A stretch of 64,000 nt of DNA from Antedon mediterranea. Lineage: Eukaryota; Echinodermata; Crinoidea; Comatulida; Antedonidae. Of the stretch, positions 1 through 51,436 are shown piece by piece (position 1 is the stretch's first letter; every line of letters starts with the position of its first letter). The position numbers and the translations under genes were made by a program. The stretch lies in the NCBI RefSeq assembly GCF_964355755.1, contig NC_092672.1, positions 8,308,001 to 8,372,000 on the forward strand, in the 5' to 3' direction. The notes beneath the pieces were generated by a model that ran no database searches, was not told the origin of the DNA, and saw only the letters and a list, made by a program, of their open reading frames with translations.

Positions 1-3000
1 AGATGAGGGCTGAGTAAACGGGACCAGTGGTCCCACTCTAACTTATACTGGACAACTAAGGAGGTACCTTAGTATAATCCCACCAAGTGACTCCCAGGAA
101 CAATCCGCCATTTTCTCACAAATACAGTATCAATTTTCACTATATTTTAAAAATGTTATCGTAATTGAGTTACACTAAAATTTAAAAGATGAGGGCTTAG
201 TAAACGGGACCAGTGGTCCCACTCTAACTTATACTGGATGATTAAAAAGTTTCCCTAGTATAATCCCACCAAGTGACTCTCAGGAACAATCCGCCCTTTT
301 CTCACAAATACAGTATCAAATTTCACTATATTTTAAAAATCGTAAATGAGATACACTCAAATTTTAAAGATGAGGGCTGAGTAAACGGGACCAGTGGTCC
401 CATTCTAACTTATACTGGACGACTAAGGGGGTACCCTAGTATAATCCCACCAAGTGACTCCCAGGAACAATCCGCCATTTTCTCACAAATACAGTATCAA
501 ATTTCACTATATTTTAAATTATTAATCGTAATTGAGTTACACTCAAATTTTAAAGATGAGGGCTGAGTAAACGGGGCAAGTGGTCCCACTCTAACTTATA
601 CTGGACGACTAAGGAGGCACCCTAGTATAATCCCACCAAGTGACTCTCAGGAACAATCCGCCGTTTTCTCACAAATACAGTATCAAATTTCACTATATTT
701 TAAAAATCGTAAATGAGTTACACTGAAATTTGAAAGATGATGGCTGAGTAAACGGGACCAGTGGACCCACTCTAACTTATACTGGACGACTAAGGGGGTA
801 CCCTAGTATAATCCCACCAAGTGACTCTCATGAACAATCCGCCGTTTTCTCACAAATACAGTATCAAATTTCACTATATTTTAAAAATCGTAAATGAGTT
901 ACACTCAAATCTTAAAGATGAGGGCTGAGTAAACGGGACCAGTGGTCCCACTCTAACTTATACTGGACAACTAAGGAGGTACCCTTGTATAATCCCACCA
1001 AGTGACTCCCAGGAACAATCCGCCATTTTCTCACAAATACAGTATCAAATTTCACTATATTTTTAAAATCGTAAATGAGTTACACTCAAATTTTAAAGAT
1101 GAGGGCTGAGTAAACGGTACCAGTGGTCCCACTCTAACTTCTACTGTACGACTAAAGAGGTACCCTAGTATAATCCCACCAAGTGACTCTCAGGAACAAT
1201 CCGCCGTTTTCTTACAATAACAGTATCAAATTTCACTATATTTTAAAAATCGTAAATGAGTTACACTCAAATTTAAAAGATGAGGGCTGAGTAAACGGGA
1301 CCAGTGGTCCCACTCTAACTTATACTGGACGACTAAGGAGGTACCCTAGTATAATCCCACCAAGTGACTCCCAGGAACAATCCGCCATTTTTTCACAAAT
1401 ACAGTATCCAATTTCACTATACTTTAAAAATCGTAAATGAGTTACACTCAAATTTTAAAGATGAGGGCTGAGTAAACGGAACCAGTGGTCCCACTCTAAC
1501 TTATACTGGACGACTAAGGGGGTACCCTAGTATAATCCCACCAAGTGACTGCCAGGAACAATCCGCCATTTTCTCACAAATACAGTATCAAATTTCACTA
1601 TATTTTAAAATATTAATCGTAATTGAGTTACACTCAAATTTTAAAGATAAGGGCTGAGTAAACGGGACCAGTGGTCCCACTCTAACTTAAACTGGACAAC
1701 TAAGGAGGTACCCTAGTATAATCCCACCAAGTGACTCCCGGGAACAATCCGCCATTTTCTCACAAATACAGTATCAAATTTCACTATATTTTAAAATATT
1801 AATCGTAATTGAGTTACACTCAAACGTTAAAGATGAGGGCTGAGTAAACGGGACCAGTGGTCCCACTCTAAATTTACCTGGACGACTAAGGGGGTACCCT
1901 AGTATAATCCCACCAAGTGACTCCCAGGAACAATCCGCCATTTTCTCACAAATACAGTATCAATTTTCACTATATTTTAAATTTTTTTATCGTAATTGAG
2001 TTACACTCAAATTTAAAAGATGAGGGCTGAGTAAACGGAACCAGTGATCCCACTCTAACTTATACTGGACAACTAAGGAGGTATCCTAGTATAATCCCAC
2101 CAAGTGACACTCAGGAACAATCCGCCGTTTTCTCACAATTACAGTATCAATTTTCACTATATTTTAAAAATCGTAAATGAGTTACACTCAAATTTAAAAG
2201 ATGAGGGCTGAGTAAACGGGACCAGTGGTCCCACTCTAACTTATACTGGACAACTAAGGGGGTACCCTAGTATAATCCCACCAAGTGACTCTAAGGAACA
2301 ATCCGCCGTTTTCTCACAAATACAGTATCAAATTTCACTATATTTTAAAAATCGTAAATGAGTTACACTCAAATTTTAAAGATGAGGGCTGAGTAAACGG
2401 GACCAGTGGTCCCACTCTAACTTATACTGGACAACTAAGGAGGTACCCTAGTATAATCCCACCAAGTGACTCCTCCCAGGAACAATCCGCCATTTTCTCA
2501 CAAATACAGTATCAAATTTCACTATATTTTTTAAATCGTAAATGAGTTACACTCAAATTTAAAGGATGAGGGCTGAGTAAACGGTACCAGTGGTCCCACT
2601 CTAACTTATACTGTACGACTAAGGAGGTACCCTAGTATAATACCACCAAGCGATTCCCAGGAACAATCCGCCATTTTCTCACCAATACAGTTTCAAATTT
2701 AACTATATTTTAAAAATTGTAATTGAGTTACACTCAAATTTTAAAGATGAGGGCTGAGTAAACGGGACCAGTGGTCGCACTCTAACTTATACTGGACAAC
2801 TAAGGGGGTACCCTAGTATAATCCCACCAAGTGAATCCCAGGAACAATCCGCCATTTTCTCACAAATACAGTATCAATTTTCACTATATTTTAAATTTTT
2901 TTATCGTAATTGAGTTACACTCAAATTTAAAAGATGAGGGCTGAGTAAACGGAAACAGTGGTCCCACTCTAACTTATACTGGACAACTAAGGAGGTACCC

Positions 3001-4884
3001 TAGTATAATCCCACCAAGTGACACTCAGGAACAATCCGCCGTTTTCTTACAAATACAGTATCAAATTTCCCTATATTTTAAAAATCGTAAATGAGTTACA
3101 CTCAAATTTAAAAGATGAGGGCTGAGTAAACGGGACCAGTGGTCCCACTCTAACTTATACTGGACGACTAAGGGGGTACCCTAGTATAATCCCACCAAGT
3201 GACTCTAAGGAACAATCCGCCGTTTTCTCACAAATACAGTATCAAATTTCACTATATTTTAAAAATCGTAAATGAGTTACACTCAAATTTTAAAGATGAG
3301 GGCTGAGTAAACGGGACCAGTGGTCCCACTCTAACTTATACTGGACAACTAAGGAGGTACCCTAGTATAATCCCACCAAGTGACTCCCAGGAACAATCCG
3401 CCATTTTCTCACAAATACAGTATCCAATTTCACTATACTTTAAAAATCGTAAATGAGTTACACTCAAATGTTAAAGATGAGGGCTGAGTAAACGGAACCA
3501 GTGGCCCCACTCTAACTTATACTGGACGACTAAGGGGGTACCCTAGTATAATCCCACCAAGTGACTGCCAGGAAAAATCCGCCATTTTCTCACAAATACA
3601 GTATCAAATTTCACTATATTTTAAAATATTAATCGTAATTGAGTTACACTCAAATTTTAAAGATAAGGGCTGAGTAAACGGGACCAGTGGTCCCACTCTA
3701 ACTTAAACTGGACAACTAAGGAGGTACCCTAGTATAATCCCACCAAGTGACTCCCGGGAACAATCCGCCATTTTCTCACAAATACAGTATCAAATTTCAC
3801 TATATTTTAAAATATTAATCGTAATTGAGTTACACTCAAACGTTAAAGATGAGGGCTGAGTAAACGGGACCAGTGGTCCCACTCTAAATTCTACTGGACA
3901 ACTAAGGGGGTACCCTAGTATAATCCTACCAAGTGACTCCCAGGAACAATCCGCCATTTTCTCACAAATACAGTATCAATTTTCACTATATTTTAAATTT
4001 TTTTATCGTAATTGAGTTACACTCAAATTTAAAAGATGAGGGCTGAGTAAACGGAACCAGTGGTCCCACTCTAACTTATACTGGACAACTAAGGAGGTAC
4101 CCTAGTATAATCCCACCAAGTGACACTCAGGAACAATCCGCCGTTTTCTCACAAATACAGTATCAAATTTCCCTATATTTTAAAAATCGTAAATGAGTTA
4201 CACTCAAATTTAAAAGATAAGGGCTGAGTAAACGGGACCAGTGGTCCCACTCTAACTTATACTGGACGACTAAGGGGGTACCCTAGTATAATCCCACCAA
4301 GTGACTCTAAGGAACAATCCGCCGTTTTCTCACAAATACAGTATCAAATTTCACTATATTTTAAAAATCGTAAATGAGTTACACTCAAATTTTAAAGATG
4401 AGGGCTGAGTAAACGGGACCAGTGGTCCTACTCTAACTTATACTGGACAACTAAGGAGGTACCCTAGTATAATCCCACCAAGTGACTCCCAGGAACAATC
4501 CGCCATTTTCTCAAAAATACAGTATAAAATTTCACTATATTTTTTAAATCGTAAATGAGTTACACTCAAATTTAAAAGATGAGGGCTGAGTAAACGGTAC
4601 CAGTGGTCCCACTCTAACTTATACTGTACGACTAAGGAGGTACCCTAGTATAATACCACCAAGCGATTCCCAGGAACAATCCGCCATTTTCTCACAAATA
4701 CAGTTTCAAATTTTTAACTATATTTTAAAAATCGTAATTGAGTTACACTCAAATTTTAAAGATGAGGGCTGAGTAAACGGGACCAGTGGTCCCACTCTAA
4801 CTTATACTGGACGACTAAGGGGGTACCCTAGTATATTCCCACCAAGTGAATCCCAGGAACAATCCGCCGTTTTTCTCACAAATA
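1..4884. repeat. ~182 bp satellite array, 27 monomers, with 11-monomer higher-order repeat
   Basis: Twenty-seven monomers begin with a GATGAGGGCTGAG-like word at positions 2, 188, 369, 555, 736, 917, 1099, 1278, 1459 and so on to 4760. Each contains the odd palindrome GGGACCAGTGGTCCC and the word ACCCTAGTATAATCCCACC. The array runs off the left edge and stops inside a monomer at about 4884. Private variants recur about 2016 bp apart: CAGTATCCA at 1402 and 3418, CTCCCGGGAA at 1735 and 3751, GATAAGGGC at about 1645 and 3660, TACCACCAAGCGATT at 2641 and 4654. This shows an 11-monomer higher-order unit. No coding potential is visible. Monomer length and higher-order structure resemble centromeric or heterochromatic satellites, but no function can be inferred from sequence alone. 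Confidence 0.97.
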
Positions 4885-5083: not shown

Positions 5084-9332
<4,249 letters not shown>

Positions 9333-19700: not shown

Positions 19701-22700
19701 CTGTGTAAATAAATATTTTTTTTTTTCCATTTTTATTTTTCCACTGATAATTATGACATGACATGAACTAGGCCTACTGCATAGTAACTGCTTTCATAAA
19801 AATCCTAATCTTGTAGGTCGTACTGTAGTTGGTAGTACTTCTGGCAAAGCCATTATATAGTCTTAAAATAACATTTGGATTGGTAGCTTTACAGTGCAAT
19901 TCTCACCCTGATTTTTGTTTATATATGCATAATACAAATACTTGCTGTCAATGTATTGTTACTAGTTAGTACAAACTAAAATTCATAGCTAATTATCCCA
20001 GTAGAGGATACAGTGGGCCTACTCTAAAGAAAGAAAGACTTGTGTTGTAAAATTCACATGGTTTAAGTTACAGAACAGGAATATTGTGTTAAAATTGTAA
20101 AGTCACTTCCTGAAGTTTGTGGTTGAAGTCTCTAATAAAAGTAATTTGAATTATTGTTCCATATGATGACCTCTAACCTAATGCAATGATCAATTTGTTA
20201 CAATCACAATTTCTGCTTTCCAACAAACATGATGACAATTTTGCAACATCCATTAATGTATAAATTTTTTTGAAGAAAAACAACATTTTGTTACTAACAT
20301 GTCTATAATTACAAAAATTGAATAAAATTAACAAATTGATTTAATTATATTACATCAAATAAATAATTCATTTATAAGTATAAATATTATATTAATAAAT
20401 AAATAATTTCTTTTAAAAAAATCTCATAACATACGCCTTCTCACAAACAATTTCTTTAATATAATACAATCATCTTAACTGTTTTTGATTTTTAATGAAT
20501 TCATTTATTTTCGGTATTCAGTATCTGTTTAAAATTTCTTCTGTGCCTGTAAATTTTATAAATTAAAAAGTTTTCTTATTTTAATACGTTTATTAGAATT
20601 CAATTTACTGTGAAAAAGATAACTGTACAATGATGATGAAGTATACCATGAAGTTCCTCCTTTTTTTGCTTAAATAGTGACAATGTTTTTTTTTTAAATT
20701 ACATTAAATTAATTTGTTATTGTAGTTACCTTGATTGTTATTACTGTATGATTTTGCAATTGAAATGAATGGTTAAAGAATAATGTGTATTTTAAATATT
20801 CTCACCCAGTGTTTTTTCAATAACAAATTCAATGTTGATTTTTAGAGCTGCAGACTGGAAGCTTGATGCGCCTGACTGGACAGGGAGGTTAAAGGTCATT
20901 GCAAAAGGAAAATCATGTTTTGTAAGGTTAGAAGACAAAACATCAGGTAACATTGATTTATTTATAATTATTAAATACACATTATTTTGAGAAATCTAAT
21001 ATGCATCTAAAGCCTAAAGTATAGACTATATATCAATCTATTGACAAACAAAAGTGTGATGTGTCCATATATGGCAGTGATATGATGTCATCGTATCCAT
21101 ATATGGGTACATCAAATTTATAGTTTGATAGTGTAGCCAGAGCTTGAAGCCTAGTAGTATACTATCAAACAAGTTTGACATAAAAGTGTGATGTGCCCAT
21201 ATATGGCAGTGATATGATGTCATCGTATCCATATATGGGTACATCAAATTTATAGTTTGATAGTGTAGCCAGAGCTTGAAGCCTAGTAGTATACTATCAA
21301 ACAAGTTTGACATAAAAGTGTGATGTGTCCATATATGGCAGTGATATGATGTCATCGTATCCATATATGGGTACATCAAATTTATAGTTTGATAGTGTAG
21401 CCAGAGCTTTAAGCCTAGTAGTATACTATCAAACAAGTTTGACATAAAAGTGGGATGTGTCCATATATGGCAGTGATATGATGTCATCGTATCCATATAT
21501 GGGTACATCAAATTTATAGTTTGATAGTGTAGCCAGAGCTTTAAGCCTAGTAGTATACTATCAAACAAGTTTGACATAAAAGTGTGATGTGCCCATATAT
21601 GGCAGTGATATGATGTCATCGTATCCATATATGGGTACATCAAATTTATAGTTTGATAGTGTAGCCAGAGCTTTAAGCCTAGTAGTATACTATCAAACAA
21701 GTTTGACATAAAAGTGTGATGTGTCCATATATGGCAGTGATATGATGTCATCGTATCCATATATGGGTACATCAAATTTATAGTTTGATGGTGTAGCCAG
21801 AGCTTTAAGCCTAGTAGTATACTATCAAACAAGTTTGACATAAAAGTGGGATGTGCCCATATATGGCAGTGATATGATGTCATCGTATCCATATATGGGT
21901 ACATCAAATTTATAGTTTGATGGTGTAGCCAGAGCTTTAAGCCTAGTAGTATACTATCAAACAAGTTTGACATAAAAGTGTGATGTGCCCATATATGGCA
22001 GTGATATGATGTCATCGTATCCATATATGGGTACATCAAATTTATAGTTTGATAGTGTAGCCAGAGCTTTAAGCCTAGTAGTATACTATCAAACAAGTTT
22101 GACATAAAAGTGGGATGTGTCCAAATATGGTACAGTAGTTGGTATGACATCATCATGTCCTTATATGGGCACATCATATTTTTTGTCACATTAAGTTTGA
22201 TAGTGTAGACAGAACTTGAAATGATTGAATATGAACATTAATACACTTTTGTTTATTAAGGCGAGCTGTTTGCTGAGTGCCCGGTAGATAGTCATCCTGG
22301 TGTGGCTGTTGAAGGCGTTATGGATTCTAGTCGATACTTTGTGCTTAGAATTGAGGATGGCAATGGTAGGTAGTGGTGAATGGTATAAAGCCAAAGATGG
22401 GGAGGGGCAAGAAAGAGGCGCGTGTTTGTAGGGACTTTCATGTTTGAGAAAATGTCATATTGGATCAATTTTGCAGCATGGCTTAAGTGTAACAATAGTG
22501 ATTCTGTAGCAGCTAATATGTTGACAGTCCTTGTAGGTATACTGTCATGATATGAGTGCTTTTCCTTAATAAATGGCATGGTATTTCTAGGCCTAGGTCA
22601 CCTTAACATGATGCTGAAGTCCTTGTAGGGAATAGGTATACTGTCATGATATAAGTGCTTTTCCTTAATAAATGACATGGTATTTCTAGGCCTAGCTCAC

Positions 22701-30634: not shown

Positions 30635-33116
30635 CTATGTCATGTTGCCTTTTGCTGTTTGCATTGAAACACGATGACTTATATACCGCCCTCGATTTGC
30701 AGTAATATACAGCCCAATACAAACGCCTACCATCATAATCATTATAATAAAAAATGTGTACACTGTAACATTAACAAGAATCGGTTCGTCCATTTGCCTT
30801 AGGTGGAGCTCTGCTTGGTGGAGGCCTGGATTCAGTTCTAGCGCGTGACGAAAATGACTGGATGCTTCGCTGACGTTACCCATTGCCATATGTATTTCAC
30901 CGAGTGTGTAGTGTTGCAACCAAACGTTACGATCTGATCCTTTGCACGATTTCAGTTCTAACGACTGTTGCGCTATTGTATACGATGAATTCAGATAGTT
31001 AAGGTTGTAAAAGACACGTGCCAAGTTTAAAAGAATATCAGGATTCTGTGGGGAAACATATAGTGCTTTCCTAAAACATTCTATGGCAAATCTCGTATTT
31101 CCTTTTATTCTCCAAAAATTACCTACTTGGTTTAAAACTGAAAGAGAATCTGGATTCTGCAAAAAATAAAAACATTAACAAAAAGTGAGACTTTAATTGA
31201 TAGAGAATGAGAAAAATAAAAAAATAAGCTACATCAAATTGGTGGTCAAAAGTGGGAAATATATAACAATTTTACCATGGTTATGTGCTGTACTATGTTT
31301 GTCAAAAGTAAATGATTTAGTGTTTTTCTTTGTTCTTACACGTACAGTAATTTATAATTCATACAGCCAGCAATATCTTCTTATATCATGGAAGAGTGTG
31401 TAATAAATATATATATTCCCTACTTAATGTCATAAATAATTTATTGTTGTTAATCGGACCATCATATGTTAAAAGGCTGACTGTTTGTTGTTTTGCCGTT
31501 TTACCTACAATATAAACAAAATTTGATGCCAGGGTGGTTCCAAGTTTTCTTAAACAATGCGGGGCTAACATATACGGTAATATTTTTGTTCTTGTAATCT
31601 TTTTCTTTCATTTATCATATATATCATTGTTATTTTGCCAATATTGAAATTAATAATAAATGTTCTTGAAATGAAATATAAAAATAGATATTAAGGGCCC
31701 AGTTATTGTTATAACTGAATAAATGTGCATGAAGGAATGAATGAATGAAGTAGTTTGTAATTTCACCTGTGGATACTACAGTACATAGATTTTAGTTGAC
31801 GCAGGCATCCAATCTGAAGCCGATTTTCCTCTAGGCGAATTTGTTCACACGAATCAAAAGCGCCAGCTTATACGCATGCGTATTCATGTTTCTATCTTCC
31901 AAATCCATCTCTGCGCATGCGTATAACCTGACACTTTCGATTCATGCGAACAAATTCGCCTAGTTGAAAATAAGCTTTAGAAATGAAGCCTGTTTATAAC
32001 TTTGTTTGCAGTAACTAATGTATTGGAATCTCATTACAGTACTCTTAACTTGCTGACACCCTAAGCTTCTTAAAAACCTATCCTTGAACTATTATTACTA
32101 AAGTAGTTCCATAAAATAAACTAAATTCCAGAAAATAACTAACATTTGTGATTAATTCCCTCAAATTTTTTTCTAAAGTGTTAACATCAATTTCTTCTCC
32201 TTCGGTTTTTTTGAAAATCATAGCAACATCTGGCTCGGGACTCGCTACATGGCTATTACGTTTTACTATTCCATCCAGGTGATCAACTTCTGTCGTGTTA
32301 GTGTGCGGTGTGCAAAATAAAGGGTCATCAGGTTCCTGAAAAATTCTGAAAAATAGATCAATTTAACAACATTAAATTAAATAAAGGTAAAGGAAATGTG
32401 AAATGCTTGAGTAGAAGTAGAACGTTTTTTTTGTTATCATGTTTTACTTCAAAACAGGAAATATACTCTGAATTATATAAAACAATTATCTTTTCCTGTT
32501 GCAATAAGACACATATGGACGGGTTGAATATACATTACACTGTAAAACGGTACTAACTACTATATTACCTACTTATACTACAGTACTAGTAAGTAAGTAA
32601 TTTATATACACTTTAATTCTTATGGCAATCTGTTGGATTTAAAACTTATTTAATATAATTATTATTAAAGTTGGAGATACAAACAAAGTAGTTAAAACTA
32701 ATTTAATTAATAAATAAATAGTTAATTTATACACTATTATATTTTAGATAATATAATATTTAATAAAAAATTACACAAACAGGAATTTAATTTAGAACAT
32801 CTGAAATAAAAATAGAAAAGAAACGGCCAAAACAAAAGACACATTATTACTTATTGCGCTCGTGTGTCTCTTCACATGATACACATTCAGCCCGTTCAGT
32901 CGCCTCACCAAACCCATATTTCTGGGCCAAGATACTCAAAACGGGGTCCTCACTGTTTACGCTCATCGGGGCTTCGTCAGTCACAGGCTCGACAAGTGCC
33001 ACACCATCTCGATTTACTAATCTCCAGTGAGTCGCAGATCTTGTATTTGTTGATATTATTGAGGAAGAAAGAATATAAAGAGCTAAGTAAGTAACGCAAG
33101 GGAGATCACATCCCAT
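30635..33116 (-). CDS. TTC17-like: Compact TTC17-like TPR membrane protein
   Basis: Minus strand, three exons: 33116-32851, 32345-32144, 31156-30635; 329 residues with all phases joining. Seen: a hydrophobic signal-like start (VTYLALYILSSSIIS), then the TTC17 N-terminal hallmark ATHWRLVNRDGVALVEP; exon 2 has QEPDDPLF; exon 3 has LNQVGNFWRIKGN followed by TPR helices (FAIECFRKALYVSPQNPDIL, YTLGEIHMAMGNVSEASSHF) over about residues 157-275; a C-terminal membrane helix (TFFIIMIMMVGVCIGLYI, about 282-308) and a short basic tail. Human TTC17 is over 1100 residues and has an N-terminal THW segment and two similar TPR modules; here the start is followed almost directly by one module. It would be a type I membrane protein with the TPRs outside or in the lumen. 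Function unknown. Missing internal exons in the 990 bp last intron are possible but not needed for alignment. Confidence 0.8.
31814..31980. mobile_element. MITE with CTAGGCGAATTTGTTC ends
   Basis: CTAGGCGAATTTGTTC and GAACAAATTCGCCTAG form an inverted pair, with ACGCATGCGTAT-type words nearer the centre in both arms. It lies in the last intron of the TTC17-like gene. A diverged relative lies near 15960-16060. Confidence 0.8.
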
Positions 33117-34045: not shown

Positions 34046-37000
34046 ATGGCGGTGGGAGTATTTTTGGTGTTAGTCTCTGCTCTTGGGCTACTTTCCACTG
34101 TTCAAGGCAGTGGAAAAACTCTAATTTTGTTAGATTCTATGGCAATAAAGGAGTCTCATTCCATCTTCTTTAAATCGTTACAAGGTGGGTAATATTTACA
34201 ATCATTTTACCGTGTTTACGCTGAGGGCCGGTAGCCCTCTAACGAATCAACAACAATGCAACGTCACCAAACTTCAACCAGGGCCGGCGCGGCCCAGAAT
34301 GTGGTCCTTCCCCTTTTGAAGGATAACCTACACAGGCCGGCCTAGCCTAGCTAGTTCTATGAATTTAAATAGTGACTTAAGCTACAGTAAATACTATATA
34401 ATAAGCTTATACTAATACTTACGAGCTAGAATTTTTAACCTGTATTTTTCTTAATTTTTTCCAGCATTCTTTTTTATTGTTAAAATAAATCATATTCATG
34501 TGACTCTTCATGCTTCACCAGGCCCAGTCCTCATCCTGGCATATGGATATGGCCCAAGCCTGCTAATCTGAATAAAAACTAAAAATGAGGCTTCACCTAT
34601 GTATGAAAGATAACAATTTAAGAGAAAAAAATCAAATGCTGTTCTAAATTATAATTTAAATATGTGGTTAAATATTTTTCTTTCTATAATTTCAGATAGA
34701 GGTTATGAGCTGACTTTTAAAACTGCTGATGATTCTAATTTAAAACTCACCAGCTATGGAGAGTATCTTTATGAGCATCTTGTTCTATTTTGCCCTTCAG
34801 TTGAAGGTACAGTACACAGCATACAGACGAATTACTGCACCAAACTACACCGAACCCAATGAACCACACAGTGAACTATAGTAAACACATGGCTTTACTC
34901 ACCATCATCTTGTTCTAGAAGGGTGGTTGTTTAGATTTTGAGGTTCAAGGCCCGAACTCTTAATATAGGGTGATTGTCGTAAGCATGACTCCTTGTATGA
35001 TGCGGTTCATTGGGGTACGGTGTGTTTCATCATTGGGGTTTGATGTAGTTCATATAGCGTTTGACGTGATTGTGGACTGCTGTACATGAGAATTGAGATA
35101 GGCTATTTTAATTGTATTTGTTTTATTATAATAAATTTAGAATGATACTACCATTAACTTATTCTATTATAATATATCAATGGTATTCTGACATTTAATG
35201 CTGTTGACTTTTTTCTTATAGAATTTGGAGGCAGCATTGGAGAAGAATCAGTTTTAGATTTTATTGATGGCGGTGGAAATGTGTTAATCGCTGCTGGCTC
35301 AAGTATAGGTATAGGTTTTGTTACTATAACATGGAACTACTCTTAGATAGTGGGCCATTGCATTTTCATTAACATACCCATATATGGACACAATGACATA
35401 TCACTACCATGTTTGGGCACATCACACTTTTTTTTTGTAAAACTAGTTTGATACTGTAGACAGAGCTTTAGTATAAGGCTTTGTTTCCCACAATTTGTGC
35501 ACCATTTACAGTACCTTCCCTGCTTCAAAAATTCTGAAAACAGAAAACAATCACATTTGAAAACCATTACCACTATAAACATAATCAAAACTGTAGATCA
35601 ATTTTATTCACAATCACAATATTTGTTTTTAATATATTTATTATTTCTTAATCATCTCTGTACAGGTGAACCCATAAGGGAAATTGGAAGTAATTGTGGT
35701 GTTGAATTTGATGAAGAAAATACCGCTGTAATAGATCATCTAAACTTTGATGTGAAAGATGAGGGAATGGTAAGTGTCTTTGGTATCCTTTTTTGTGACT
35801 TAAATTATTAGGCAAGATTTGGACCCAAGACCCTGGGATTATGAGACAGTCATCAAGAACCACAAAGAGGTTGACTATATTCTACATACATTGACATTAA
35901 GTACCTGCGAGTGGCCGAGTAGTTAAGACAGTGGAACCATAATTCTGTAGCTATACCATTGGAAAGGGTTCAAGGCTCACTTGCTCCAAGGTTCTGGTGG
36001 TAGAACGAGTCTTCTTGGATAATGACTATAAACTGTAGGTCCTGTGTACACATCTAGCTCATGTGCACTTTAAAGAACTTAGTACATCTTTCAAAACAAG
36101 TAGGGAGTTACCCCAGTGTACTAGTACATCACAGCCACTGATCGTGACTGGGCCCTCTGGGAGACCAGTCTTTTACTAAAGAGGTCACCCGGTATAAATA
36201 AAATATTTAAATGTAAGTAAGCAATTGCAAAAAAAATATATATATGTAAAGCATTTCAATTCTAATCGTATATGTTTTTCTTTATATTTCTAGCACACAT
36301 TGATTGTAGCAGATCCAGCTAATATTATTGATTCTAAAATCATTGTAGGAGATAGGAAGTTAAATCCAATTTTATTTAAGGGTGTTGGGTAAGTAAACCA
36401 GTCACCAACAAATACTGTAGTTGTTGATTAAATTCCTTTCACGACTAATCTAGTGTTGAAGACAATATGCACAATTATAAACAAGGGTATATGGCTCTGT
36501 CTACACTATCAAACTTTATGTAACCATTGTACCCATATATGGACATGATGTTGTCATATCACTACTATATTTGAGTAAATCACACTAGTTTAATAGTGTA
36601 GGCATAGCTTTTTTTCTGTCACATAAAAGAGCTTTAGGATAAATAAGATTTCATGGCCATGGGAAATAGGTTACATTGCTGCCCATTTGTAATGTCTCGC
36701 ATTTATTTTTGGTGTTCTCGAGAAAAAAATATGAGATATGACCATGTGTAGTCCCATACCCATCAAGTATAAACCACTAATTTTTTTAGATGGTCTTTGG
36801 ATACTGTAAAACCTTGAAAAGAAGCCTACTGGGCTTCTGTTTAATGTTTTATTGTATCCAAGTATATTCCCATCACTTACTCCAAATGTTGTATCTTTTC
36901 TATCTCAGTTCGTACAATGCTTTGTTTATCTAAATTATTTCCCCTTTTTTATACCATGTTCAAGTACCCTTCATTGATATATATTCAAATGTAAAATTGT

Positions 37001-41211: not shown

Positions 41212-42905
41212 TCCGGATATTCACCCCCTGGACATTTACCCCCCGGACAACTACCCCCCGGACAACCACCACCTGGACCACTACCCCCTTAGGACAACTA
41301 CCCCTTTAGGACAACTACCCCCCGGACAAATACCCCCCGGACAACTACCTCCTGGACAACTACCCCCCGGACAATTACCCCCTAGGAACAATTACCCCCC
41401 GGACAATTACCCCCCGGACAATTACCACCCAGAAAACTATCCCTTTAGAACACCCTAACCACCCAGACCATTCAACAACCTGACTCTGCAACAGTGTATA
41501 ATAGGAATTAATAACTATATTTTAATGACGAATTACTATTCATTATTGTAAACAAAAGTAAAAGATTGAACATAAATATAGCCTGGTATAAACTGAAGAT
41601 TGTCACACATGATCATAGGATAGTCGAACGTATTATATAGTACTCCCTGTATTTACTGTAAAGACTGGGTTCGCTAATAATAATAATAATTTTTGCGTCA
41701 GGACAATGCTTCGATAACCACTGGTCTTAAAAGAATTAATTTTTGTCTCAAATTTGTCATATATGTATTTTTGTACACTTGAAGAATAATATCACTTTTG
41801 ATATTTGACCTCAATGTTCACTCACCGAATAAACGTCGATCTTTAAATAAATTCCCCTCAAATAAACGGTGACCATGTCACTCCCATGAAACATCATATG
41901 GAATAATCGGCGTCTATTTCCATTAGATTATACCCCTCCCATTGAATAAACAACTTTCTTCCAATAAATGTCCACCTAAAAACCACCTAAACAATAAACA
42001 GCCCAGGCCGTTTTTTCAATAAATACGGTACTTTAAATCTAGCACATCTAGGGTCTAGCGTGCTGTTAAACAGAATAATCGGTTAAAAAGGGGTGTTTCG
42101 AAACTAGAGACCCGAGACCAGAGACCAGAGACCCGAGACCCAATACGAAAAGGGAGACCTAAATATACGAAAAGGGAGACCCACGTACGAAAAGGGAGAC
42201 CCCACTATACGAAAAGGGAGACCCCACTATACGAAAAGGGAGACCCCACTATACGAAAAGGGAGACCCTAATATACGAAAAGGGAGACCTAAATATACGA
42301 AAAGGGAGACCCAATTATACGAAAGGGAGACCCAAATATACAAAATGGGAAACCCAAATATACGAAAAGGGAGACCCACTATAAGAAAAGGGAGACCCAC
42401 TATAAGAAAAGGGAGACCCCACTATACGAAAAGAGAGACCACACTATACGAAAAGGGAGACCCTAATATACGAAAAGGGAGACCCAAATATAGGTCTCCC
42501 TTTTCGTATTGGGTCTCGTGTCAGGTCTCTGGTCTCGGGTCTCTAGTTTCGAAACACCCGTTAAAAACAGATGATTTCATTTTTACAGAAACCGGTCCTA
42601 TATATTTGTCTACTTTTGGATGGGGGGGGGGGTAGTTGACCGGGGGGTAGTTGACCGGGGGGTAGTTGACCGGGGGGTAGTTGACCGAGGGGTAGTTGAC
42701 CGGGGGGTAGTTATCCTAAGGGGGTAGTTGTCCTAAGGGGGTGGTTGTCCGGGGGGTAGTTGTCCGGGGGGTTGTTATCCTAAGGGGGTAGTTGTCCTAA
42801 GGGGGTAGTTGTCCGGGGGGTAGTTGTCCGGGGGGTAGTTGTCCTAAGGGGGTAGTTGTCCGGGTGGTAAACATCCGGGGGGTAACTGTCTAGGGGGTAG
42901 GTGTC
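41212..42905. mobile_element. Large foldback with inverted minisatellite arms
   Basis: The left arm (about 41221-41450) is a C-rich array of units like TACCCCCCGGACAAC; the right arm (about 42621-42900) is the reverse complement, units like GGGGGGTAGTTGTCC and GGGGGTAGTTGTCCTAA. The outermost parts also pair (CACCCCCTGGACATTTACC against GGTAACTGTCTAGGGGGTAG). The centre contains AT-rich sequence with loosely repeated AATAAAC words and a separate foldback at 42091-42559. No clear target-site duplication is seen, so it may be a foldback transposon or an inverted duplication of a minisatellite. Confidence 0.75.
42082..42568. mobile_element. GGGTGT foldback element with internal tandem repeats
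   Basis: Ends GGGTGTTTCGAAAC at 42091 and GTTTCGAAACACCC to 42559, with the match continuing inward (CTAGAGACCCGAGACCAGAG against CTCTGGTCTCGGGTCTCTAG). Flanks GTTAAAAAG (42082) and GTTAAAAAC (42560) match at 8 of 9 bases. Between the arms are about 18 units of 18-20 bp containing TACGAAAAGGGAGACC. No coding potential. It is nested in the larger foldback at 41212-42905 and shares its ends with the element at 51447. Confidence 0.88.
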
Positions 42906-42906
42906 C

Positions 42907-44175: not shown

Positions 44176-47100
44176 ATGTTTTATGATGACGACGATGATA
44201 CAATTCTGCCATTTCTGTCTCTCGGACCGTATTTGATGAGACGAAAAATACAAGAAGAAATGAACAAGAAAGAAGTAGGCCGAGTTTATATTCTAGTTTT
44301 AATTAGTTTACTTTTAGCTTAAATCATAATGTAGCAGTTCCGCAACCAAGATAATTAAAGTGGTGCAGTATTCCCCCTGTGTGGGTCACAGGGTTGTCAA
44401 AAGTCTCTGTTAAAAAGTGGTCATGGTGAAACCTTACCTGTACGAATTTTACTGGTGGCTGTGTCCGGTGTAGTATTTTGAATACATGTTTGTTATTAAG
44501 GGCCTGTTTCTATAGAGCAGAGAATACGGTTTTGAATACCGTTCTTTTCAAGAACCGTTTTTTCTTGCCAGCAGAAATGGGTCCCCACAAAAAACCACAA
44601 AAAAGAACCGATCTTAAAAACGGTTTCAAAAACCCCAATTGATTGCGGTCTCGATCGCAAAGAACCGTTCTGAAACCGGTTTCCGCGGAGCAATTTTTAG
44701 CTGCAACACAATCGCGGTCTCAATTTGACCCCAAAAACTGAACTCTGCAGTCTGCTGCACTGGGATGATTGCGGTCATCTCGCAGTCAAACTCGCGCGAT
44801 AGGACCTAGGCCTAAGTCATTTTTATTTCTCTAGATAGTGAGTATTTTATTTAACTAAAAAATGTTGACCGATGCCATTACGAGGTTCGTAAAAAATATG
44901 TGAAGGAAAGAAGATGAGGGGACTTGTCGGGAGTCGGAAGAAAGACTCACGTATAGGCCTACATGTTTTTAAGAATATTGTAAAGCGTGTGAAAAATAGA
45001 CGAGTTCAACTTGACAATATCAGAGGGTGCGACGTACCTATACTTTAACCAAGGACCACAATAACGTTTCAGGTAATAATTCCCCTTCTATGATGAAATG
45101 GATGCTATTTCTTGGGGATCGCGCTATGCGAAAAAAAGTAAACATGACCTCGATCAAATCGCGCTTCCGCCTAACGAACTGCATTGTGGTGTATATAATG
45201 ACGTCATTCATAACGAACGCACATGGACGGAACCGGTTTTATTGGAGTAAAAATTGAGCTGCAACGCGATCTTTATTTATTAAACAACAGCCGAAACCGG
45301 TTTCCAAAAAACCGTTCTTTTTTTATTTTTCAATAGAAACAGGCCCTAAGTGTTTTATAATAATAGTCCTCAAATGAAATACAATATCCCACAAACGACT
45401 GAAAAAATGTAAACGCTATAGTGCTGCCATGAGTCTTTATGATCAGAGTTCATCTATCAGTATTATTTTATTTCTTGGTCCCTTTTAGTTAGATAAACCA
45501 TGGAGGAAAAAATAATAATAATAAATTAATAATAATAAACAAAACAATCTCAAATAATTATCATTATACACTCAGGAAGAAGAAGCATCAACGAGCAGGA
45601 AGATGAAGAATAAGCCGACTGATTCTATTGTAATTAAAGTTGGTGTGTCAATGGGGAGATTCTTTAATAAAAAGGAGCTGAGTGATGTCAAGTTAAAGGT
45701 AAGTATATGCATTAGTTCTCCAGTAAGTTAAACAATAACAATGTATTTAAGAACACTCACTTCGTTGCTTAACAAAACGTTAATAAATTCCATTTTATGC
45801 CAGACTAAAAATGATTGTGGTCACAGTAGCGAGCTTCCGTGTCGATACTGTAGATGAAAGAGAAGGAATGAATGGAACAACGGTTGAATTATTGTCCATT
45901 AAGGTACCCTTATATCGACATGTAACTCAACTGTGTCGACGTAAGCGCTCCAAGCAACTGAACGCAACTGACAGGCACACAAAAAATGTCAACATAAGCT
46001 TAGTTGCTTTCTGTCGCCCATGTTCTACTTTTCCGGAACTGAAAACTTTGAATCGAGTCACGTGCAGTGTAGGTAACCGCGACCAGTTTGATTTTACCAA
46101 AAAAAACGTTCACGCATACTGATTCCTCTATACAACTACATTGCGCTGTAAGTTAACCACAATTAGTTACAATCAGTTCCAGTGTCGGCATAAGCACTTG
46201 CACACTGGTTCCTTTCAGTTGAGTTCCATGTGGACATAAAGGGCCCCTTAAGTCAAAGTGATTTATTATGATTATTTAATATGTATTGCATACCACTTAA
46301 AAGAATGATTCTATTGTATCTGGATAAGTAGTAGCAAGAGCGATATTCAGTAGACCTTAACTCCCAATGTTTCTCATAATGTATTGTATGTATTTTTTAA
46401 AGGTTGGTGATAAAGTCTTTGATGCACACAAGATAGTTGTAGTGTCTGCAAGCGACGTCTTTGAAGCAATGCTGATGAATGAAAAATGGCAGGAGGCAAG
46501 CAAGCAAGAGATTGAACTGCAAGATGACAACGCTGAAGACTTTGCAATGGTTCTTAAGTTCCTTTACACTGGAAGGATATGTCTTCACATCAAAAAGATC
46601 ATGTCTGTGTATCACATAGCTGATAAATACAATCTAAAAGTACTAAAGCTGGCTCTATGCAAATTCCTTCATAAATTTGTGACTCAACGTAAGCAGCAGG
46701 GAAAACTCACCTGCCCAGAAGCCATTGCAATTTGCAACGCATTTGAATCCGACACGCTGATGCATCCTGGGTTGAAATCTGTCATACAGTGGATTGGAAC
46801 AAATTTCAACAATTTCATAAAGAGTAGTGAATGGGAAAGCCTTCCGAGAAGAACCATTCTGATGATTCTGCAAAAAGATGAAATTGGTGACAATGAGCAG
46901 AAGATCTTCGCAGCAGCAAAGAGGTGGTTGCAGTACGATGACTCGCGTACTGAAACACCAGAACTCATCTTCGAAGTACTGCAGCACGTTCGACTGACGA
47001 TTCTCTCTGCGAGGGACTTGTATACTATAGAAAACGACCCTATCGTAATAAGATGCCCTCAGATGGTGAAACTTGTTTCCGACACTATACGGCGAAAGTT

Positions 47101-47281
47101 TTATGAAGGTGTGCCCAACTTTATAGGTGAAAGTGTAAAACCAAAATGGCTGAAGCGTCGTGAAAGAAATTACTCCAACCCCCCCTCATGCGAAGTGTCA
47201 TTCTCTTATGGCTGTTACTATGGTGATGATGATGACTACTTTGATGATGAAGACGAAGACTACTCCGATAACGAATGGTAA
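44176..47281 (+). CDS. BTB-BACK domain protein, BTBD17-like, no Kelch repeats
   Basis: Three exons: 44176-44274, 45576-45698, 46403-47281; 366 residues, phases all zero. The start ATG is the first after an in-frame stop at 44134. Seen: acidic start MFYDDDDDTIL; BTB fold from LSDVKLKVGDKVFDAHKIVV through VFEAMLMNEKW, MVLKFLYTGRI and IADKYNLKVLKLALCKFL (about residues 68-165); BACK-type helices after it (CPEAIAICNAFESDTL, WESLPRRTILMILQKDEI, AAAKRWLQYD, about 175-300); an unusual acidic tail with DDDDYFDDEDEDYSDNEW at the very end. There is no room for Kelch repeats. BTB-BACK proteins often act as adaptors for cullin-3 ubiquitin ligases, but some, such as the BTBD17 class, have other or unknown roles; the substrate cannot be inferred. 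Introns hold a Harbinger-like and a TTAA-type MITE. Confidence 0.88.
44497..45349. mobile_element. Harbinger-like non-autonomous element
   Basis: Ends GGGCCTGTTTCTAT at 44500 and ATAGAAACAGGCCC to 45346 are perfect inverted copies and are flanked by TAA on both sides (44497-44499, 45347-45349). A 3 bp TWA duplication with GG-starting ends is characteristic of PIF/Harbinger. Subterminal parts repeat AACCGTTCTTTT and AAACCGGTTTC in both orientations. No transposase. It sits in intron 1 of the BTB-BACK gene. Confidence 0.82.
45899..46251. mobile_element. TTAA-flanked MITE
   Basis: TTAAGGTACCCTTATATCGA at 45899 and, at the right end, TGGACATAAAGGGCCCCTTAA are inverted copies with TTAA at both tips. 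Farther inward ACTCAACTG and CAGTTGAGT pair. TTAA targets suggest piggyBac mobilisation, but its ends differ from the element at 23240. In intron 2 of the BTB-BACK gene, about 150 bp before exon 3. Confidence 0.75.
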
Positions 47282-49120: not shown

Positions 49121-49127
49121 TATATAA
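49121..49127 (+). promoter_or_regulatory. TATA box of the peptide precursor gene
   Basis: TATATAA, 63 bases before the start codon at 49190. Transcription would start at about 49150, giving a short leader of about 40 bases and no need for an upstream exon. Confidence 0.55.
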
Positions 49128-49189: not shown

Positions 49190-50179
49190 ATGTCGTATGT
49201 TAATGTCTTCTGTTATGTCTTACTTTTATCAAGGATGTGCTCGAGTACAGGTAGTGCAGGGTTTAATATTATGTATCCTGCCCCAATTAATGATATCTCC
49301 AGTAGGCCTACCAAAACGTTAAACGGTGATGAACTCTTGACTCCAGAGAAATTGGACAAGCGAATGTTTCCAGAGGCATTAAATACACGTATGTATCCAG
49401 AGGCGTTATTAAATAAACGCATGTATCCAGAAGCATTAAATAAACGCATGTTTCCAGAGGCGTTATCGGACAAACGCATGTTTCCAGAGGCTTTCTTGGA
49501 TAAACGCATGTATCCAGAGGCGTTATTGGACAAACGAATGTTTCCAGAGGCGTTATTGGAATTGGATAAACGCATGTTTCCAGAGGCGTTTTTGGATAAA
49601 CTCATGTATCCAGAGGCATTAACTAAACGCATGTATCCAGAGGCATTATTGGATAAACGCATGTTTCCAGAGGCTTTATTGGATAAACGCATGTATCCAG
49701 AGGCGTTATCGGATAAACGCATGTTTCCAGAGGCGTTATCGGACAAACGCATGTTTCCAGAGGCGTTATTAAATAAACGCATGTTTCCAGAGGCGTTATT
49801 AGATAAACGCATGTTTCCAGAGGCGTTATTGGACAAACGCATGTTTCCAGAGGCGTTATTAAATAAACGCATGTTTCCAGAGGCGTTATTAGATAAACGC
49901 ATGTTTCCAGAGGCGTTATTGGACAAACGCATGTTTCCAGAGGCGTTATTGGACAAACGCATGTTTCCAGAGGCGTTATTAAATAAACGCATGTTTCCAG
50001 AGGCGTTATTAGATAAACGCATGTTTCCAGAGGCGTTATTGGACAAACGCATGTTTCCAGAGGCGTTATTGGACAAACGCATGTTTCCAGAGGCGTTATT
50101 GGACAAACACATATTATTTCCAGAAGCGTCATTGGACAAACGAATGTTTCCAGAGGCCTTAAATAATGAACAATCGTGA
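49190..50179 (+). CDS. Secreted multi-copy peptide precursor, MFPEALLD-KR repeats
   Basis: Intronless frame of 329 residues. The ATG at 49190 is chosen because it starts the hydrophobic signal peptide (MSYVNVFCYVLLLSRMCSST); the frame extends a few codons upstream but without ATG. A spacer with MYPAPINDI follows, then EKLDKR and about 27 copies of a peptide of the form M-F/Y-P-E-A-L-L-D/N, nearly every one followed by KR. Prohormone convertase cleavage at KR and carboxypeptidase trimming would release octapeptides such as MFPEALLD, MFPEALLN and MYPEALLD; no glycine precedes the sites, so no C-terminal amide is expected. Copies with Y are confined to the first half, and the second half is almost uniform. 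Copy 1 ends TR, copy 8 KL, copy 25 KH, so some peptides would stay joined. A TATA box and an AATAAA at 50312 frame the gene. I recognise no known neuropeptide family; a secreted non-neural peptide is an alternative. Confidence 0.88.
   Translation: MSYVNVFCYVLLLSRMCSSTGSAGFNIMYPAPINDISSRPTKTLNGDELLTPEKLDKRMFPEALNTRMYPEALLNKRMYPEALNKRMFPEALSDKRMFPEAFLDKRMYPEALLDKRMFPEALLELDKRMFPEAFLDKLMYPEALTKRMYPEALLDKRMFPEALLDKRMYPEALSDKRMFPEALSDKRMFPEALLNKRMFPEALLDKRMFPEALLDKRMFPEALLNKRMFPEALLDKRMFPEALLDKRMFPEALLDKRMFPEALLNKRMFPEALLDKRMFPEALLDKRMFPEALLDKRMFPEALLDKHILFPEASLDKRMFPEALNNEQS
49358..50160 (+). repeat. 30 bp coding minisatellite of the peptide precursor
   Basis: Unit CGCATGTTTCCAGAGGCGTT plus TATTGGACAAA or a variant, about 27 times. 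Within it a longer 90-120 bp pattern of the variable codon (AAT, GAT, GAC, GAC) recurs in the second half, showing duplication of several units at once. One unit has an extra two codons (about 49557-49568), and two units are one codon shorter. Confidence 0.93.
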
Positions 50180-50311
50180 ATTTTTGTACAATTGTGTTGA
50201 CTGAACATTCTCATTAGAAGTATTCTTTAATCGTACTTAATTTATTATCTTACCATTTGCTCACTATCGCGTGCCTCTATAATGAAGGTGTAATGTTCAA
50301 CTAATGAAATG

Positions 50312-50317
50312 AATAAA
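50312..50317 (+). terminator. Polyadenylation signal of the peptide precursor
   Basis: AATAAA 133 bases after the stop codon. Confidence 0.6.
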
Positions 50318-51436
50318 AATAAAATCAATAGTTAAGTAACATTTTTATTTCATTTACCGTAATTTTTTATAATTATTTACTTTTATTTTTTGCCCGTGAC
50401 GACATGCATGACCAATCAAGACACGCGCTAACTATCTGCAATAATACACTACCACCACCACCACTGTAAAAAAATAACTATATAGCGCCACCTATCACAC
50501 ACAAACTTTTTTAAGCAGACGACTTTGTGAAACATGTGTTCATTGTTGGCATTTTGTCTGAGATTCATTCATTTATGTATTAAAACAGGTAATAATCTGA
50601 CTAGGAAGATTCAGTATTAGTTAAGAAAGTATGTATTCTACAGTAGAATTAAGATCTACAGTACTAGGCTAGGCCTAGGCCTACTAGGCACATGCGTAAA
50701 TAGGACTAGCCTAGCTAGTAGTAGGCCTACTACTAGAGGCTAGGCCTAGCTAGGCCTACTAGGCTAGGCCTCTAGCTAGCTTGGTCCAGCAGGAGCAGCC
50801 TCTAGCTAGGCCTAGTTTATTTTAGGCCTAGCTAGGCCTACGCCTGTGAGTGTCTAACTAACTACTAAGACTAAAAGGCCTAACTAGGCCTAGGCCTACC
50901 TCTCTCTAGTAGGCCTCTAACTAGAGAAGAGAGGCCCACCCAGCAGGCCTAGGCCTAGCCGAATACAGCACAGAACTCAGTGGTGGGCCATCATTACGAT
51001 GACGCCTACCCCGGGCCCTGCTATAGTATAGACCTAACCTACTACTACTACTAGCTAGCTAGGGCCTACCTAGCCTATACAGGCATCTCTTTCTAGGTCT
51101 CTACTAGCCTAGCTGCGCCAGGCAGGTTATTAAGGCCAAATATGGTACGAAAAATAGCCTGGATGCAACTGTGTTGTGTTTATCAATCGATTATCATACT
51201 AAATTGACTTGTGTCTGAACTTTGAACATTTTTGTTAAAATCATTGCAGAAATACATAGGCCTAGGCCTAGATCAAAATTCATTATTTTTGTAATGTGTG
51301 AAAATATCATGAGCATGATGTTAGGCTGGTAGACAAGCCTAAAATATGTGAGTCTCTTGATGCAACTTTAATTCATCATTATTCATGTGATCATGGTAGC
51401 TGCTGCAGAGTAAGGATCGTCTCCCAATAATGTGAT
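50318..51436. other. Non-coding, with TAGGCCTA-rich block
   Basis: No gene supported. From about 50650 to 51130 the sequence is built largely of overlapping AGGCCT, CTAGGCC and TAGCTAG words in many orders, all of them self-complementary, without a fixed period. It is the densest block of this kind in the window. Confidence 0.7.

Follow-up and report, generated by a model that had tools for sequence, protein, structure and literature searches.

The window, i.e., the whole 64,000-nucleotide stretch of Antedon mediterranea DNA that was analysed, contains the following features in the neighbourhood of the precursor:

6449-9332, pieces of NSUN5, a neighbouring gene
30638-31174, - strand, a TPR exon
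35452-35808, a match to OST48 that stays below the cut-off
46367-47281, a BTB-BACK frame whose tail is very acidic, some 2 kb ahead of the precursor described here

The precursor frame itself, as given by the list of open reading frames and by translation, is organised as follows:

49190-50179, + strand, precursor open frame of 329 codons plus a stop
49190-49246, + strand, proposed signal peptide MSYVNVFCYVLLLSRMCSS, with a presumed cleavage point
49247-49363, + strand, spacer of 37 residues, then the first Lys-Arg (KR)
49364-50176, + strand, 27 repeat units M(F/Y)PEALL(D/N)KR with a tail, NNEQS (translation and gap control)
49385-49390, + strand, altered cleavage site TR in unit 1
49598-49603, + strand, altered cleavage site KL in unit 8
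49751-50080, + strand, homogenised block of three-unit and four-unit repeats (MNO MNOO MNOO in exact-DNA unit labels)
50105-50113, + strand, altered cleavage site KHI in unit 25

Translation agrees with a previous sequence-only reading of the locus as to the frame, its coordinates, the 27 copies and the order of a spacer followed by peptide-KR units. Twenty-one of the units are 30 bp long, three are 27 bp, one is 36 bp and one is 33 bp, the last unit ending in NNEQS and the stop. MFPEALLDKR occurs nine times, MFPEALLNKR three times, MFPEALSDKR and MYPEALLDKR twice each, and 11 units occur only once; within the spacer, MYPAPIND may be a decayed repeat unit. There are 24 KR in total, one ahead of unit 1 and the others at 23 of the 26 unit junctions, the three altered junctions reading Thr-Arg, Lys-Leu and Lys-His-Ile; the earlier statement that KR is kept thus holds for most junctions, with these three as exceptions. 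The 27 units therefore form a series of related peptides bounded by dibasic sites, as in multi-copy secreted peptide precursors. The ends of the array are more divergent than its homogenised middle block, a pattern as unequal exchange would leave it.

Digestion in silico at KR only gives 24 pieces downstream of the spacer: 20 single units, among which MFPEALLD is found nine times and MFPEALLN three times, three double units and MFPEALNNEQS. No Gly precedes KR in any of the 27 translated units, and no Cys is found in the translation after the signal region, so that the predicted peptides would have neither C-terminal amidation nor disulfide bonds. They are mostly linear octapeptides with a free Asp or Asn at the C-terminus, in line with their earlier description as acidic (or nearly so), non-amidated and starting with Met.

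Tandem repeats are frequent in this DNA. At the left end of the window, a 181-bp satellite of 26.7 copies (1-4884) runs off the edge, and palindromic units resembling GCGCAATTTAAAATTGCGC form a short array (5868-6061) just ahead of the NSUN5 gene. On the - strand, about eight 132-bp units (21038-22237) are open over 399 codons, and hydrophobic segments recur in their translation. A 15-bp unit (ACCCCCCGGACAACT, with GGGGGGTAGTTGTCC as its reverse complement) forms two arrays, at 41223-41443 and 42627-42906, which face each other and, with a 22-bp array between them (42143-42492), make up a large inverted arrangement. Elsewhere in the same genome, arrays at G000:C3 (~12.9 kb) and on G000:C18 have an NYSELLGTTR-like translation in all three frames of one strand; stops occur in each frame, with 3-5 in the 1000 readable bases on C18, and a single frame is not kept there.

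An open frame is weak evidence in tandem DNA, because the genome is rich in minisatellites and a frame antisense to the precursor is open as well (see below). In a genome so rich in them, some arrays will look like a precursor by chance, and the locus could be one of these, a minisatellite that does not code and whose open frame, hydrophobic start and dibasic residues are accidental. A 30-bp period that has no stop stays open in every copy. In a control sample consisting of the window and twenty 10-kb stretches of the same contig (264 kb), 35 array rows were counted (at least 5 copies, a period of at least 6 and a length of at least 150 bp, with overlapping rows counted); leaving the precursor array aside, 6 of the 34 remaining rows have at least one open frame, with dibasic residues in one of these six.

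Length changes within the array argue against such a chance origin. Alignment to its tandem consensus shows five gaps in the array, each a multiple of three in length. For comparison, 25 further arrays from this genome, with a period of 15-100 and 4 copies or more, have 86 gaps, of which 15 are multiples of three; gaps occur in 20 of these 25 arrays, and a single array supplies 24 of the 86. For five in-frame gaps out of five, P is 0.0002 if the gaps are independent and 0.005 if the three 27-bp units are one event. Among 19 distinct types of substitution, 11 affect the third codon position, seven the second and one the first, i.e., an excess at third positions (binomial P 0.024) while second positions are not depleted. 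In addition, the sense frame has 68 open codons upstream of the array, a length reached by chance in ~1% of cases at the local stop frequency, and five after it, and its dibasic sites are in register with the start codon. Taken together, the gap and third-position tests favour coding, either in the sense frame or in an antisense frame with facing wobble positions. The sequence-only reading had also deduced selection from the conservative nature of the amino-acid changes, which is weakly borne out as a statistic: the 21 full-length units show 15 distinct changes, 6 of them synonymous where 3.65 are expected (P 0.090), and the conservative-change score gives P 0.086. Codon usage, judged from 745 training codons, is uninformative and does not favour the sense frame.

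Only two frames are open through the array, namely the sense frame, as had been called, and one on the opposite strand that had gone unmentioned:

49213-50214, - strand, antisense open frame of 333 codons with the repeat SNNASGNMRL (list of open reading frames, Pfam, flanks checked)

This antisense frame, flanked by 22 and 50 open codons, could itself be the gene, its product being a repeat protein similar to the toastrack domain, a beta-solenoid. Neither the third-position test nor the gap test tells one strand from the other, because the antisense wobble positions coincide with the sense ones, and the in-frame gaps are the same in both frames. Furthermore, the antisense frame matches the toastrack family DUF4097 in Pfam with 53.2 bits (cut-off 22.9, E 3.4e-14). 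However, when the columns of the antisense repeat were permuted 10 times, 5 of the 10 resulting sequences, each of 21 units and 210 residues and hence shorter than the real frame, passed the curated cut-off of some Pfam family. Repetition alone yields such matches, and the DUF4097 match behaves like an artefact of this kind, as one permuted repeat scores higher (65.7 bits). No hydrophobic start is found in the antisense frame. In the sense frame, a hydrophobic stretch comes directly after the ATG, and the dibasic sites keep the register. Synonymous changes differ negligibly between the two strands (5 of 15 for antisense, 6 of 15 for sense). All in all, an antisense gene appears highly improbable.

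Three further features of the sense strand bear on the start and the limits of a possible transcript:

49213-49233, + strand, T-rich stretch ending in AG, within the signal-peptide code (read by eye)
49121-49127, + strand, TATATAA, previously proposed as a TATA box (motif present)
50312-50323, + strand, two AATAAA hexamers (50312 and 50318), previously proposed as the polyadenylation signal (motif present)

The signal peptide that had been announced does have a hydrophobic core after the ATG. Its best 9-residue hydropathy is 2.56, weaker than the 3.63 of the crinotocin precursor encoded by the same genome, and no basic residue lies ahead of the core. Hydrophobicity at least equal to that of MSYVNVFCYVLLLSRMCSS is found in 37 of the 427 ATG-started stretches of 30 open codons in the window, or about 1 in 12, as a chance minisatellite might also show. 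The hydrophobic N-terminus would therefore count as moderate evidence for a signal peptide, and the T-rich stretch could possibly belong, instead, to a 3' splice site whose tract ends at 49233. As to the TATA box and polyadenylation signal, both are plausibly placed, but such motifs are as frequent as expected by chance: the window has 1.9 AATAAA and 1.7 TATAWAW per strand-kb, so that TATATAA at 49121 is no evidence by itself. Such frequencies, too, fit a minisatellite that is open by chance, an explanation that we nonetheless consider rather unlikely given the in-frame gaps, the third-position excess, the open upstream codons and the register of the dibasic sites. Further support for a precursor comes from the continuous frame with its hydrophobic start, its spacer and 24 KR in register.

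The DNA is of crinoid origin, and the crinotocin gene used above for comparison was found through a search of the genome for the neurophysin family, which gave a single locus, at G000:C4 ~25.45 Mb. An exon upstream of this locus encodes a signal peptide followed by CFWRTCPVG-Gly-Lys-Arg, and CFWRTCPVG is reported, in text passages of a survey of crinoid neuropeptides, as the crinotocin of the feather star Antedon mediterranea (PMC9793003). In this crinotocin-neurophysin gene, the peptide and the neurophysin domain are on separate exons, several kilobases apart. According to the same passages, Trp-Arg at positions 3 and 4 sets the three crinoids studied apart from eleutherozoan echinoderms (PMC9793003).

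Relatives of the MFPEALLD precursor were looked for in its own genome, in protein collections and in the literature. The assembly used has 354 Mb in 18 contigs (C1, C3 and C4 of 36-41 Mb, C16-C18 of 13-23 kb), and protein searches of it find the array at a single locus, with 8 matches in each search. One further match, near the end of the same contig (E 1.64), lies within another tandem array and looks like chance rather than a paralogue. When the whole precursor was compared with 5.8 billion proteins, 2706 candidates yielded a single match; this pentapeptide-repeat protein (E 1.7e-8), with 36% identity over 38% of the query, was judged to be an artefact of repetition. The first 147 codons have no match among 93 candidates at E 10. 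Neither search gave a credible homologue in this collection, which is suspected to be poor in animal proteins, so that the absence weighs little. Phage records gave no match to the precursor, and solved structures gave two weak ones (best E 0.16). In Pfam, the sense frame has matches to seven families at E up to 1. One of them, Pentapeptide_4, does not reach its gathering cut-off (22.4 bits versus 38), and another, DUF1660, scores 23.8 for a cut-off of 21.4 with no significant stretch and was set aside, since the antisense permutations indicate that such matches arise from repetition.

The pentapeptide-type matches, together with the very regular 10-residue repeat, raise the possibility of a sense protein that is secreted and left uncut, with a structural or adhesive role. 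They are nevertheless of the kind that permuted repeats produce, and AlphaFold, run on the single sense sequence without an alignment, predicts no confident fold (mean pLDDT 47.3, pTM 0.28); such a low pLDDT is, weakly, what would be expected of a precursor. Moreover, KR in animal secretory proteins is normally cut. An uncut repeat protein is for these reasons a distinctly improbable reading.

FPEALL was not found in the literature text searched, figures and supplements, where such sequences usually appear, being outside the search. Of PEALLDKR, PEALLNKR, YPEALL and PEALLD, only YPEALL occurs among the literature matches listed, in titles from unrelated fields, and a further text search for related words returned a single unrelated paper. 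Text passages of echinoderm neuropeptide papers (their figures and supplements apart) contain no such peptide, and neither does the text on 20 further predicted crinoid precursors, whose sequences are not all spelled out there (PMC9793003). The view that the peptide is unlike known families fits what the protein databases and the text of the literature, short of its figures and supplements, returned.

Echinoderms are known to have precursors in which many peptide copies are spaced by KR, and the predicted MFPEALLD precursor fits this architecture. In the crinoid Anneissia japonica, the AN-peptide precursor AnjapPCNP1 contains 16 AN and 2 GN peptides (PMC9793003), and some AN peptides are described as non-amidated in other echinoderm classes. 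Such precursors likewise hold many short related peptides with dibasic cleavage, but AN peptides begin with Ala-Asn, which none of the 27 MFPEALLD-type units does. The pedal peptide/orcokinin-type precursor AnjapPPLNP, reported in the same text with 12 copies and dibasic sites (PMC9793003), resembles the MFPEALLD array in both respects. In peptides of this type, according to that text, a Phe lies near the N-terminus, Asp-X-Leu in the core and an aromatic residue towards the C-terminus (PMC9793003); the MFPEALLD-type units have Phe or Tyr at position 2, but lack the Asp-X-Leu core and the C-terminal aromatic residue. Echinoderm TRH-type precursors, for which passages of the literature give 19 copies in a sea cucumber and 21 in a brittle star, are close in copy number, with about 20 copies per precursor. 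Their products are, however, amidated tetrapeptides starting with pGlu, whereas the MFPEALLD-type units have no Gln at the start and no Gly before KR. A parallel in the peptide ending is Ovnp18 of brittle stars, described in such passages as four copies of LFWVD, which are also short, end in Asp and have no amidation signal. It differs in sequence, length and copy number, and has Cys in the C-terminal region of its precursor.

A different parallel comes from reproduction. The sperm-activating peptides of sea urchins and starfish derive from repeat precursors, with many secreted copies per precursor, and their sequences are not known to be related to MFPEALLD. The MFPEALLD precursor could in the same way be cut at KR to release exocrine peptides, for instance a pheromone, a glandular secretion or egg-coat peptides that activate sperm. 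A large number of short, non-amidated peptide copies would serve a bulk output, and a rapidly homogenised array would suit a species-specific gamete signal; the block homogenisation in this array is strong. Against this, the sequence holds no pointers to eggs or glands, and we know of no crinoid sperm-activating peptide. An exocrine role is on these grounds unlikely, while a neuropeptide or hormone precursor, secreted as a pro-peptide and cut at KR into many copies, has about an even chance of being correct.

Signal peptides, convertase cleavage at Lys-Arg and carboxypeptidase trimming make up the general peptide-precursor pathway of animals. In the MFPEALLD precursor, whose gene would have to be transcribed, the N-terminal signal peptide would take the chain into the secretory pathway, where a prohormone convertase would cut at the 24 Lys-Arg sites and a carboxypeptidase would trim the basic residues, leaving about 20 acidic, non-amidated short peptides. 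Their most likely role would be that of a ligand, neuropeptide or hormone, made in many copies. Copy number would change by duplication of blocks of 3-4 units, with the frame and most KR sites kept. Whichever of the two roles applies, a processed secreted precursor is a reasonably likely mechanism. The proposal of a new neuropeptide or exocrine family is thus upheld in so far as a processed multi-copy secreted precursor is the best reading, sequence making no distinction between a neural or hormonal role and an exocrine one; the locus is probably a gene whose products form a new family of secreted crinoid peptides, with a precursor architecture of known kind.

Crinoids are sister to all other living echinoderms, and the survey of their neuropeptides drew on one annotated genome and two Illumina transcriptomes, one of the latter assembled with 31-mers (PMC9793003). 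A 30-bp repeat likely collapses in a transcriptome assembly of this type, and a precursor found in a contiguous genome would consequently show that surveys can miss the most repetitive precursors. MFPEALLD-type peptides also offer exact masses and an easy bioassay; computed [M+H]+ values are 935.4543 for MFPEALLD, 934.4703 for MFPEALLN, 951.4492 for MYPEALLD and 909.4022 for MFPEALSD. Tyr exceeds Phe by the mass that oxidation adds to Met, so that MYPEALLD (computed mass 951.449) coincides with oxidised MFPEALLD, as follows from their composition, and fragment spectra are needed to separate the two. Tentatively, the MFPEALLD-type peptides might represent a crinoid signalling family that has no relatives in other animals, or else be the first crinoid peptides that guide sperm or act as pheromones. 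If such a signalling family exists, each precursor would release about 20 copies of acidic peptides with a free Asp or Asn end, and their receptor would then be of another kind than the receptors of many neuropeptides, which recognise an amide.
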